NCBI GenBank assembly: GCA_025062075.1
Contig: JANXBA010000002.1
Coordinates: forward strand, 1 to 43,705
Direction: 5' to 3'
DNA: 43,705 bases
Source of the DNA: Aquificaceae bacterium
GTDB lineage: Bacteria > Aquificota > Aquificia > Aquificales > Aquificaceae
Position 1 is the first letter of the stretch; every line of letters begins with the position of its first letter. The notes under the pieces were generated by a model. It saw only the letters and a program-made list of their open reading frames with translations, had not been told where the DNA came from and ran no database searches. A program made the translations under genes and the position numbers. Positions 3,178 to 8,032 of the stretch are shown here, piece after piece.

Positions 3178-3763
3178 GGACGAACTCCTCCATCTTTCTG
3201 TGGTCCTTTATGCCAGGGCTCTGTTCTATTCCTGAGGACACGTCCACGCAGTAGGGCCTTACGCGTAGGAGAGCTTCTTTCACGTTGCTCGGGTTCAGGC
3301 CTCCTGCCAGAAACACTCTGAAGCCCTCTTCTACCAGCGCCTTAGCCCTGTACCAGTCCGCCCGTTTGCCACTTCCACCGTAGAGCTCCGAGCACGCATC
3401 CAGAAGAAGCCCGTGGACCCTTTTCCAGCATGCGGGAATCTCCAAGTGAGGGCAGGTTCTAAAGGCTTTTATCACTCTTTCAAGGTCCACCTTCTGCGCC
3501 AATGAGCAGTCTTCGTCGCCGTGGAGCTGGACCAGGTCAAAGCCCAGCTCAAAGGCCTCTTCAACCTCTCCCGGGCTGGGGTTTACCATCACTGCCACCT
3601 TCTTGACCTTCCCACCTACTTTTAGGAGTTCCTCTAGCCCCTTCTTGGGCACGTACCTAGGGCTTTTATGGTATAGCACTATGCCCACGTAGTCAACTCC
3701 TAGCTCCACCGCCCTTTGAACGTCCTCGCCTCTAGTAAAACCGCACAGCTTGACGCGGACCAT
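3149..3763 (-). CDS. trpF: Phosphoribosylanthranilate isomerase
   Basis: VKLCGFTRGEDVQRAVELGVDYVGIV; FLAGGLNPSNV; VDVSSGIEQSPGIKD. Confidence 0.96.
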   Translation of the reverse strand: MVRVKLCGFTRGEDVQRAVELGVDYVGIVLYHKSPRYVPKKGLEELLKVGGKVKKVAVMVNPSPGEVEEAFELGFDLVQLHGDEDCSLAQKVDLERVIKAFRTCPHLEIPACWKRVHGLLLDACSELYGGSGKRADWYRAKALVEEGFRVFLAGGLNPSNVKEALLRVRPYCVDVSSGIEQSPGIKDHRKMEEFVRAVKDSPED

Positions 3764-3793
3764 GAAGGGACTCCTACTGATATAATACGTAAG

Positions 3794-4006
3794 ATGAAGG
3801 TAAAAGTGCTCATAATGCCCAGAAAGGGCCTGCTGGACCCTGAAGGTAGGGCGGTCAAGGAGATGCTCTTAGAGGAAGGGTTTCCAGTCAGAGAAGTAAA
3901 GGTGGGCAAGGTGGTGGAGCTGGAAGTGGAAGAGACGGCAGACGTAAAGACCATAGCGGAGAAGTATCTTGTCAACCCCCTGGTGGAAGAGTATCAGATA
4001 GAATGA
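3794..4006 (+). CDS. purS: Phosphoribosylformylglycinamidine synthase subunit PurS
   Basis: Internal ATG at 3794 gives MKVKVLIMPRKGLLDPEGRAVKEMLLEEGF, typical PurS; the ORF track start at 3716 is too early. Confidence 0.93.
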   Translation: MKVKVLIMPRKGLLDPEGRAVKEMLLEEGFPVREVKVGKVVELEVEETADVKTIAEKYLVNPLVEEYQIE

Positions 4007-4683
4007 AGTTTGCGGTCTGCGTCTTCCCGGGCTCTAACTGCGACTACGACACTTACTACGTGCTGAGAGACTTGCTTGGGCAGGAGGTGAGCTTTGTGGA
4101 CTACCAGAGGCGCTCCTTGCAAGGCTTTGACTGCGTGGTCATACCTGGGGGCTTCTCCTTTGGAGACTACCTGAGAGCCGGCGTGCTGGCCAGTAAGACC
4201 CCGCTCGGTCAGGCTCTTGTGGACTTTGCCCAAAAGGGCGGGCTAATTCTCGGCATATGCAACGGCTTTCAAGTGCTTACCGAGCTCCATCTGCTACCGG
4301 GAGCTCTGTTAAAGAACAGGGACCTTAACTTCCTCTGCACGGACGTGTACCTGAGAGTGGAGAACAACTCCTTGCCTTTTACCAGAAGTTTTGAGAAGGG
4401 GGAGGTCATAAGGTTGCCAATCGCCCACGGAGAGGGAAGGTATTACGTCCCAGAAGAGGAACTCCGAAGAATGGAAGAGAGGGGTCAGGTGGTCCTGCGC
4501 TACTGCAGTCAGGAAGGCAAGGTAGAGGAGGCTTTCAACCCCAACGGTTCTGTGGGCAACGTGGCAGGGGTGTGCAACCGGGAGGGAAACGTCTTTGGTC
4601 TGATGCCTCACCCTGAGAGGGCCTGCGAAGACCTTCTCGGCTACAGGGACGGCATACTCCTGTGGCATTCTCTCATCACGTAG
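4003..4683 (+). CDS. purQ: Phosphoribosylformylglycinamidine synthase subunit PurQ (glutaminase)
   Basis: FPGSNCDYD, GGFSFGDYLRAG, GICNGFQVL, LMPHPERA; ATGA overlap with purS. Confidence 0.97.
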   Translation: MKFAVCVFPGSNCDYDTYYVLRDLLGQEVSFVDYQRRSLQGFDCVVIPGGFSFGDYLRAGVLASKTPLGQALVDFAQKGGLILGICNGFQVLTELHLLPGALLKNRDLNFLCTDVYLRVENNSLPFTRSFEKGEVIRLPIAHGEGRYYVPEEELRRMEERGQVVLRYCSQEGKVEEAFNPNGSVGNVAGVCNREGNVFGLMPHPERACEDLLGYRDGILLWHSLIT

Positions 4684-4698
4684 GACTATAATTTAGCT

Positions 4699-6249
4699 AT
4701 GAAACTCTCTAACGAGTTCAAGGTTGGTCTTCTCGTTTTGCTGTTCTCTCTCGGTTTTGCCTTTCTCGTCCTTACCTTTGGGGAAGTTCCCTTCTTAGGC
4801 CCCAAGGGGAAGACCTACAGAGTATTCTTTGATGACGTGGCGGGGCTTGGGGTGGGTGCGGAGGTAAGGGTGGCGGGCATAAGGAGCGGTAGAGTTAAGT
4901 CCGTCTCCCTCAAGGAGGGAAAGGTAGAAGTGGTCTTTGAGCTGGAAAAAGATGCGGTCCTGTACCGGGATGCGGTGGCGGAGATAGGGACCTTGGGGCT
5001 TATGGGAGACAAGTACTTAAACCTCCACCCGGGCACGCCTGCCTCGGGCGTTTTGGAGGAGGGGGGCACAGTCCAGAGGTCTTTGGGCTATGCGGACACG
5101 GACAGGCTGGTGAAGGAAATAACGCAGGCCTCGGAGAGAGTTAGGCTTCTGGCAGAGACCCTTCAGATAATTCTCTCAGAAAACAGGGAAGACATAAGGA
5201 TGCTGGTGAAGAACCTCCAGGAGCTCAGCTACACGCTTAACTTGATAGCTCAAGAAAACAGAGAATCTCTCAAAGGGGCGGTGCACAACGTAAACCTGCT
5301 GGCCTACAACTTAAACAGAAGCCTGCCCAAGACTATAGAGAGCATAGACAGGCTGGCAAGGAGTTTGGAGCAGGTGACCTCAGAAAACAGACAGGAGCTC
5401 AAGGAAACTGTGACCAACTTAAGAGACCTGAGCAGGGAACTCAAGACTACTCTTCCGGAGCTCTCTCGCAATCTCAACGCCATACTAACAGAAAACAGGC
5501 AGGACATAAGGACGACCACCAGCAACCTCTCGGAGTTGAGCAGGTCCTTAAGAGACAGCTCAGAGAGGCTCAACCGCATCTTGGCCCACGTAGAGCGGGG
5601 AGAGGGTACCATAGGCAAGCTCATAAAAGAGGAGGACCTCTACAGGAATCTCTCCACGGGGCTGGGCGTTTTGGCCAAGGCAGGGCAGGTGGCGGAGAGG
5701 ACCAACCTTTACGTAAGCTTTAGGGGAGAGCTCTACAGGGCAGGAGATTCCAAGGGCATTCTGTCCGTCAAACTCCAACCAGACGGGGAGAAATACTACC
5801 TCCTGGAAGTGGTAGGAGACTCAAGGGGAAGGGTCTACAGAGAGGAGTTTCTGCCTAACCAGTACCTCGTAAGAAAGGAATTCAAGCCTGAGCTTACCTT
5901 GCAGTACGCTCGTACGTTTCCCGTGCCCGGCGGTAAGGAGCTCACCTTCAGGGGCGGGCTGAAGGAGTCCACCGGCGGGGTGGGCACGGACCTTGTCCTT
6001 TCTGACAGGCTCTACCTCTACTCGGACCTGTGGGACTTTGGCAGACGGGACAGACCTCAGGACAAAGACCTAAAGCCCAACCTTCAGGTAGGCGTGCACT
6101 ACAGGGTAAGGGGCCCTCTTTACGTAAGGGTGGGGGGAGACGACTTGCTTAACGCCAAGCTCAGAGGAGCCTTCGGCGGGGTAGGTCTGATGTTTACCGA
6201 CAACGACCTTAAGTACCTTATCGGCAGTCTTAGAGTTCCCTTGCGTTGA
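4699..6249 (+). CDS. mlaD: MCE/MlaD-family protein with long helical region and C-terminal beta-rich domain
   Basis: N-terminal TM anchor (FKVGLLVLLFSLGFAFLVLTFG), MCE domain (VFFDDVAGLGVGAEVRVAGIRSGRVKSV...GLMGDKYLNL), helical stretch with repeated ENR[EQ] motifs, then beta-rich C-terminal about 190 aa. Confidence 0.88.
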   Translation: MKLSNEFKVGLLVLLFSLGFAFLVLTFGEVPFLGPKGKTYRVFFDDVAGLGVGAEVRVAGIRSGRVKSVSLKEGKVEVVFELEKDAVLYRDAVAEIGTLGLMGDKYLNLHPGTPASGVLEEGGTVQRSLGYADTDRLVKEITQASERVRLLAETLQIILSENREDIRMLVKNLQELSYTLNLIAQENRESLKGAVHNVNLLAYNLNRSLPKTIESIDRLARSLEQVTSENRQELKETVTNLRDLSRELKTTLPELSRNLNAILTENRQDIRTTTSNLSELSRSLRDSSERLNRILAHVERGEGTIGKLIKEEDLYRNLSTGLGVLAKAGQVAERTNLYVSFRGELYRAGDSKGILSVKLQPDGEKYYLLEVVGDSRGRVYREEFLPNQYLVRKEFKPELTLQYARTFPVPGGKELTFRGGLKESTGGVGTDLVLSDRLYLYSDLWDFGRRDRPQDKDLKPNLQVGVHYRVRGPLYVRVGGDDLLNAKLRGAFGGVGLMFTDNDLKYLIGSLRVPLR

Positions 6250-6278: not shown

Positions 6279-7355
6279 ATGTATGAGGCGCACATCTACA
6301 GACTCTACAGGGTAAACTTAAACTTGGGCAAAGAAGAGAGCCTTCTTGTTTTCACCGATACTGAGAAGGACTACTTGGCGGAGCTCTTGGAGGAGTTCGT
6401 GGCGGTAGGAGAAGGCGTGGCAGGAAGGGTAAAGCACATTCTGTATACCTCCTTGGGTGCCCACGGCAAGGAACCTCCGGAGGAGGTCTGGAGGCTCACC
6501 TTCGGGGACGAGGCGGTAGACAAGCTGGCGCAGACGGGTCTTTTAGAAAAAGTCCTGCTCAAAGAGGACTACTCGGAGGCGGAAGTCCTTGAAATGTTGC
6601 TCAAGCACGGCAGGGAGGTGCCTCAGGTAGTGGTGGCCTTTCCCTACTACTCTACCACCCACACCTTTTTTAGGAAGGCGTTGACCCAGGGCTTTGGCTG
6701 TAGATACGCCAGCATGCCCCTATTTGAACCAGAAATGTTTACCGGTCCTATGGAGGTGGACTGGAACTCCGTAGCCACCGTAAGTCAAGATGTGGCGGAC
6801 ATACTCTCAGAGGCCCAGTGGGCCCACATAAGGGCGGAGGGGACTGACCTGGAGTTTTCCTTGGAAAACAGGCAGGCGGTGGCGGACACGGGGATTTTTC
6901 ACCACAGAGGGCAATACGGAAACCTCCCTGCGGGAGAGGCCTTTATTGCACCCCTTGAAGACTCCGCCTTCGGACGGCTTACCATCACCTACGCTCCGGA
7001 CAGACCGCTTCGCCAGCCCATAACTCTGCGCTTTAAGGACGGCTCAGTGGAAGAGTTGGAAGGCTTTGAACCCTACAGAGATTATCTGGAAGAGGTCTTT
7101 CAAAGACACGAAGGGGCGCGCAGGGTGGCAGAGTTCGGCGTGGGGACAAACCCCAAGGCCAGAAGGCCGGACAACCTGCTGGAGGCGGAGAAGATACTCG
7201 GCACGGTCCATGTGGCCATAGGCGACAATCACACCTTTGGTGGTACGAACAGGGTACCCTTTCACACCGATTACGTGATATTTGAACCTGAAGTAACGGT
7301 AGGAGGTAAGGGATGGCAAAAGAGGCTTTTAGAGAAAGGCAAGCTCAGGACCTAA
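6279..7355 (+). CDS. M29-family aminopeptidase (thermophilic aminopeptidase)
   Basis: AEFGVGTNPKARRP, EKILGTVHVAIGDNHTFGG, HTDYVI: M29 metallopeptidase signatures. Confidence 0.9.
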   Translation: MYEAHIYRLYRVNLNLGKEESLLVFTDTEKDYLAELLEEFVAVGEGVAGRVKHILYTSLGAHGKEPPEEVWRLTFGDEAVDKLAQTGLLEKVLLKEDYSEAEVLEMLLKHGREVPQVVVAFPYYSTTHTFFRKALTQGFGCRYASMPLFEPEMFTGPMEVDWNSVATVSQDVADILSEAQWAHIRAEGTDLEFSLENRQAVADTGIFHHRGQYGNLPAGEAFIAPLEDSAFGRLTITYAPDRPLRQPITLRFKDGSVEELEGFEPYRDYLEEVFQRHEGARRVAEFGVGTNPKARRPDNLLEAEKILGTVHVAIGDNHTFGGTNRVPFHTDYVIFEPEVTVGGKGWQKRLLEKGKLRT

Positions 7356-8032
7356 AGCTGGAGATGCTCAGAAAGGTTCACCTCTTTGAGGACCTCTCTG
7401 AGGAGGAACTCAAGGACGCCCTAAAGTACATGCAGGTAGGGGAGTTTAAGAGGAACCAGTACCTCTTTTTTGAGGAGGAGGCAGAGCCTGGCGTGCACAT
7501 ACTCGTGGAGGGGCTGGTCAAGCTCCTCAAGGAGACCCACGACGCCCGCATAGTAATCGTCAGGCTCGTGTATCCAAGAGACATCTTTGGCTGGATAGAG
7601 TGGGGGAAAAAAGTCTCCAGAAACACCTACACTGCCAAGGCCATACTGGACAGCAAGACCCTATACATATCCAACAAAGACTTTATAAACCTTTCCATAA
7701 AGCACCCCGCAATAGCGGTAAAGATGACCTGTGAGGCTACCGCCATCTTGCTCCACAGCTACGAGACCCTGAAGAGCATCGCAGGGGGCAAGGTGGAGGA
7801 GCGCATAGCCCGAGCCCTTCTAGAGATAGCGGACCGAATAGGCAAGCAGTACGACGACATGATTGTGATAGATGCGCCCCTTACCAGACTGGACATTGCG
7901 GAGATGACGGGCACCACGGTGGAGACCACCATAAGGGTGATGAGCAAGTGGAAAAAGCAGGGCATAATAAACGCAGAGAGGGGCCACATTGAGATACTGA
8001 GGAGAAGGGACTTAGAAAGACTTGCCATATGA
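7313..8032 (+). CDS. Crp/Fnr-family transcriptional regulator
   Basis: Cyclic-nucleotide-binding-like N-terminus, C-terminal HTH (TRLDIAEMTGTTVETTIRVMSKWKKQGII); AGGAGG upstream of ATG 7313; 43-nt overlap with the M29 gene. Confidence 0.92.
   Translation: MAKEAFRERQAQDLKLEMLRKVHLFEDLSEEELKDALKYMQVGEFKRNQYLFFEEEAEPGVHILVEGLVKLLKETHDARIVIVRLVYPRDIFGWIEWGKKVSRNTYTAKAILDSKTLYISNKDFINLSIKHPAIAVKMTCEATAILLHSYETLKSIAGGKVEERIARALLEIADRIGKQYDDMIVIDAPLTRLDIAEMTGTTVETTIRVMSKWKKQGIINAERGHIEILRRRDLERLAI

Follow-up and report, generated by a model that had tools for sequence, protein, structure and literature searches.

The closest described counterpart of the protein examined here is the long MlaD of Veillonella parvula, in which the same domain architecture was described and the barrel was localised to the outer membrane by fractionation (Grasekamp et al. 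2023, PMC10665443). That survey predicted barrels for about 10% of MlaDs, namely 103 long ones spread over diderm phyla (PMC10665443). The authors considered the Veillonella barrel too narrow to let phospholipids through and left open what it does; an arrangement of six narrow barrels about a single tunnel has yet to be described (PMC10665443). The survey's MlaF calls needed synteny and its MlaDE tree was limited to clustered genes (PMC10665443), so scattered systems like those of the Aquificaceae would be under-counted. The term 'Aquific' is absent from the main text of PMC10665443, and among the papers searched none discussing Aquificota MlaD was found.

Other MCE systems share parts of this design. 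The MlaFEDB systems of E. coli and Acinetobacter have in common with the system described below an MlaD-type MCE domain, MlaE and MlaF, but their MlaD is short, carries neither needle nor barrel, and requires MlaC and MlaA. PqiB and LetB (YebT) are likewise MCE tunnel proteins spanning the periplasm, with several MCE rings per chain versus one MCE domain in the protein studied here, to which they gave weak matches only. Mce1 of Mycobacterium smegmatis (PDB 8fed) joins an MCE ring to a long helical needle of repeated modules, with eight helical repeats separated by kinks in each chain and a hydrophobic tunnel lining (PMC9882608).

The DNA analysed was a 43,705-nucleotide stretch of an Aquificaceae genome (the window), in which an mlaD gene at 4699..6249 on the + strand encodes a 516-amino acid (aa) MCE protein with a predicted C-terminal β-barrel; its ATG start is conserved among relatives by alignment. 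A sequence-only reading of this DNA had likened the protein to the long MlaD of Veillonella, and the likeness holds feature by feature. Both proteins consist of a transmembrane (TM) helix, a single MCE domain, a helical section of about 150-170 residues and a C-terminal barrel (Veillonella being known here from its published description), and both genomes have MlaE, MlaF and TamB and are devoid of MlaA and MlaC. The two differ in length (419 aa in V. parvula versus 516 aa) and in barrel strands (10 reported versus 12 predicted); unlike Veillonella, the window MlaD has a conserved C-terminal helix after the last strand, the three mla genes are scattered in Aquificaceae, and LolA is present in the source genome; the phased asparagines described below may be a further difference.

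Domain order and helical section

The full-length AF2 model, for which the input was a 57-sequence alignment of relatives taken from genome contigs, comprised a TM helix at residues 5-27, a well predicted MCE domain, helices at 134-299, strands at 336-500 and a helix at 501-510. The N-terminal inner-membrane helix (4711..4779, + strand) is also conserved in the alignment. The MCE (MlaD) domain (residues 37-112; 4807..5034, + strand) was supported by Foldseek and matched Pfam PF02470 with an E-value of 3e-19 and 69.5 bits versus a cut-off of 25.1, and was the only such domain detected. The protein therefore combines PF02470 with a predicted N-terminal inner-membrane anchor, as is characteristic of the MCE family. 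Two NCBIfam models scored below their cut-offs, at 75.5 bits versus 135 for TIGR04430 (the E. coli-type OM_asym_MlaD equivalog) and 118.3 versus 140.5 bits for TIGR00996 (the actinobacterial Mce family), placing the protein outside the short proteobacterial MlaD and actinobacterial Mce subfamilies. Profile searching matched it to MlaD and to the M. smegmatis Mce1 chains (E-value 1.4e-30), with query residues 6-266 and thus most of the helical section included. When the full-length model was compared to the PDB by Foldseek, Mce1 and MlaD structures were the top matches, and the monomer MCE domain resembled MlaD protomers.

The elongated helix that follows the MCE domain in long barrel-type MlaDs was found at residues 134-299 (5098..5595, + strand), based on AF2, alignment and periodicity, with ENR motifs beginning at residues 161, 186, 229 and 265 and conserved prolines at 210 and 253. 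Thus, the one N-terminal TM segment, single MCE domain and helical stretch of about 170 aa with four ENR motifs that had been read earlier from the letters were each recovered. This section of about 166 residues was not placed by AF2 (pLDDT mostly below 50), and its helices were interrupted at the ENR motifs, breaks that could represent Mce1-like kinks or an artefact of modelling a monomer. At 0.15 nm per residue the section would extend about 25 nm if the helix is continuous, and helices too short for the periplasm were accordingly not what was found. Weak Pfam and NCBIfam matches of the section to apolipophorin, SMC and similar families were put down to helix composition.

Hydrophobic residues in the helical section recurred with a period of 3.58 residues and a power of 5.0, compared to a maximum of 2.5 among 500 shuffles. 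Comparing five segments of the section showed the hydrophobic face in a single phase, with deviations of about 12 degrees at most for the window protein and about 30 degrees at most for Aquificaceae plus nearest kin; giving the segments random phase offsets reproduced this coherence in 0-3% of trials. The in-phase stripe was weaker in Hydrogenothermaceae, Desulfurobacteriaceae and Nitrospirota. The asparagines of the ENR motifs (residues 162, 187, 230 and 266) lie at -14, -20, -16 and +4 degrees from the centre of this face, and in 113 of 114 ENR-type motifs across relatives, which share ancestry and are not independent, the asparagine falls within 60 degrees of it. This phased stripe with central ENR asparagines is one new detail of the Aquificaceae MlaD. 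An unbroken helix lining a parallel helical tube requires such a single-phase stripe. In a hexamer the ENR asparagines would make up polar rings that face the lumen or lie where helices touch, and since the stripe is in phase along the whole section and the asparagines sit at its centre, an Aquificaceae hexamer could carry these rings in a stack. A bolder version is offered tentatively and is rather doubtful: the Aquificaceae needle would be an uninterrupted six-helix tube of about 25 nm, its hydrophobic lumen studded with one-phase rings of six asparagines that give lipid headgroups polar footholds as they travel towards a 12-stranded outer-membrane barrel. Length differences among relatives were also compared to helix turns; several are multiples of 3.58 residues and others are not, and because this fit is partial, no helix-turn rule is claimed.

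The predicted C-terminal barrel

A conserved linker, GEGTIGKLIKEEDLY (residues 301-315; 5599..5643, + strand, from the alignment), joins the helical section to a predicted 12-stranded outer-membrane β-barrel (residues 336-500; 5704..6198, + strand). The 12 strands had pLDDT values mostly of about 90 or more in the full-length AF2 model, and the same 12 strands were obtained when the C-terminal part was folded alone (pTM 0.70). The beta-rich C-terminus noted earlier is hence retained, and the structure prediction returned a transmembrane-type barrel rather than a soluble domain. By Foldseek against the PDB, the C-terminal model matched almost only membrane β-barrels, among them designed transmembrane barrels (one of them 12-stranded), OmpG, Omp33, KdgM and OmpA. 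The best E-value was 9e-5 and TM-scores against the query were about 0.35-0.44 for the best matches; with values this modest, Foldseek supports the barrel at class level only. Searching by sequence with the barrel matched no solved structure, and no Pfam barrel family matched the domain. The outer-membrane barrel typical of long MlaDs is thus present by prediction, with one barrel per chain versus the six-strand portal barrel that the six different chains of the Mce1 heterohexamer build jointly.

The last strand (6172..6195, + strand) reads F492-x-G494-x-G496-L497-x-F499, a pattern that resembles the beta-signal of outer-membrane proteins. Its residues are highly conserved, with G494 found in 57 of 57 sequences and G496 and F499 each in 56 of 57. 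Beyond this strand, AF2 and the alignment place the conserved C-terminal helix DNDLKYLIGS (residues 501-510; 6199..6228, + strand). Hydrophobic residues alternate between faces in the C-terminal strands, with a significant mean difference of 0.40 versus 0.21 for the null; the control strands of the soluble MCE domain gave 0.48. Face alternation was therefore rejected as proof, by itself, of membrane insertion.

Partner genes, gene order and distribution

The source genome (1.25 Mb, 99.7% complete) encodes a single MCE protein, the window MlaD. No mlaE or mlaF ORFs were seen among the ORFs of the window, as the sequence-only reading had stated. That reading had gone on to call the gene physically orphaned. 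MlaE and MlaF are both encoded on other contigs, so mlaD is orphaned in position only, and the idea of an MCE protein standing alone with no transporter was rejected on the same finding. One MlaE was detected (contig C31). The MlaF, on a third contig (C57), was the best match of E. coli MlaF (37%, 1e-45) and of the operon-encoded MlaFs from Desulfurobacteriaceae and Nitrospirota, was a reciprocal best match, and outscored every other ATPase in the comparison by about twofold in bits. MlaC and MlaA were absent from this 99.7% complete genome, leaving MlaE and MlaF without them. TamB, LpxC, LolA and two Omp85 proteins were present. The only STAS_2 match was partial and lay within a 700-codon frame (L145, G000:C11:3017-3181), such that a stand-alone MlaB is not evident.

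Directly upstream of mlaD are purS and purQ (3716..4683, + strand, from ORFs and synteny), and downstream are genes for a putative M29-like aminopeptidase and a Crp/Fnr-like regulator (6279..8032, + strand), named by sequence inspection; mlaD starts 15 bases past purQ and ends 29 bases ahead of the aminopeptidase ORF. The mlaD-M29-crp order was found in most Aquificaceae and mlaD-crp in Hydrogenothermaceae, and purS-purQ stood beside mlaD only in the genus of the window and its nearest kin. One record named 'Acidobacteria bacterium isolate J001' (L067) branched within Aquificaceae in the tree, has purS-purQ-mlaD arranged as in the genus of the window, and is probably a misnamed bin.

Matches to the window MlaD were detected in 79 of 81 Aquificota genomes, and MlaE likewise in 79 of 81. 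Nitrospirota relatives aligned near end to end at 27-30%. In a midpoint-rooted tree, the window MlaD grouped among the Aquificaceae, and Desulfurobacteriaceae split from other Aquificota. The genes mlaE-mlaF-mlaD are contiguous in Desulfurobacteriaceae and Nitrospirota; they are scattered in Aquificaceae and Hydrogenothermaceae, and in the source genome they lie on three contigs and not in one cluster, clustering being a usual trait that is not defining and was treated as variable. The simplest reading, which we infer from these arrangements, is that an ancestral mlaEFD cluster was broken up in the Aquificales lineage with the proteins still functionally together.

Individual genomes showed further variation. 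In one (G047, L037:2383-4060) mlaD is in two pieces by a frameshift, either an error or a real break, and same-genus relatives are intact. Another (G015, L041:2551-12954) has two mlaE-mlaF-mlaD copies that score equally and are separated by 7.2 kb, reflecting either a recent duplication or an assembly artefact. In a distant class member (G059, L048:4142-5500), the MCE protein is divergent, has 452 aa and ends in a C-terminus that does not match the window barrel. Some Aquificota (genus g5, Hydrogenobaculum-like, and G042) have a second, contiguous MCE cluster (L049:98-3021, L053:2544-5722 and L050:223-3482) of an MlaE-like protein, an ATPase, an MCE protein of about 305 aa without a barrel and a lipoprotein-like protein of about 180 aa; the MlaE-like protein has an N-terminal STAS-like extension in two loci. 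This cluster recalls chimeric Mla-Pqi systems (PMC12436622).

Proposed transport route and its meaning

The observed domain order, family and conservation, together with MlaE and MlaF being encoded and MlaA and MlaC missing, lead us to propose that the window MlaD belongs to a phospholipid transporter of three components, MlaEFD, with a hexameric tunnel of about 25 nm leading to outer-membrane barrels, at a probability of roughly 0.78. In this model, an inner-membrane ABC transporter of two MlaE and two MlaF would bear an MCE ring of six MlaD copies, whose parallel helices would form a hydrophobically lined tunnel of about 25 nm across the periplasm. The predicted C-terminal 12-stranded barrels would be seated in the outer membrane, and lipids, presumably phospholipids, would travel through the tunnel on energy from MlaF, with no need for MlaA or MlaC. 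Retrograde transport would be no more than the likelier guess for direction, by analogy to other Mla systems. Counted for this model were the MCE domain, the profile match, the barrel predicted both alone and at full length, the Foldseek matches, the last strand, the hydrophobic stripe, the partner genes, synteny and the 79/81 spread. Counted against it were the unplaced helices, the low barrel TM-scores, a face alternation no stronger than that of the MCE strands, the weaker stripe outside Aquificaceae and the undescribed six-barrel geometry.

The barrel could instead act as an outer-membrane anchor only, a tether or spacer, with lipid entering or leaving the tunnel below the membrane or via other proteins. 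A 12-stranded barrel is narrow, and that of Veillonella was already judged too narrow for phospholipid (PMC10665443); the barrel is strongly conserved, its glycines and the C-terminal helix included, as would suit a specific role while remaining compatible with tethering, and we consider an anchor without further function unlikely. A soluble or peripheral location of the C-terminal β domain, as a cap docking on another outer-membrane protein, is less probable again: the top Foldseek matches were almost all outer-membrane or designed transmembrane barrels and the last strand is beta-signal-like, set against hydrophobic alternation no stronger than in the soluble MCE strands, low TM-scores and Pfam barrel families without a match to the domain. 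Import of a different hydrophobic substrate (fatty acids or some other lipid) rather than inter-membrane phospholipid traffic would follow the example of Mce1, which is a fatty acid importer (PMC9882608) and the best match of the helical section among solved structures. This appears very improbable for the sole MCE/MlaE system of the source genome, one that is near-universal in the phylum (79/81) and whose co-occurrence with TamB and LPS synthesis fits envelope maintenance.

On the preferred reading, that of a trans-envelope phospholipid transporter, the Aquificota have a minimal MlaEFD with a long barrel-type MlaD. As this architecture has been described in Veillonella (PMC10665443), the Aquificota protein is a well-supported further case of a known kind of system and is not novel in principle. 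The finding places a minimal trans-envelope MlaEFD with barrel near-universally in a thermophile phylum unnamed in the main text of PMC10665443, and the Aquificaceae MlaF is an example of what a survey relying on synteny would overlook. A structure of a barrel-type MlaD, still missing, would show how six barrels connect to a single MCE tunnel, and the thermostable proteins of Aquificota could lend themselves well to that work.
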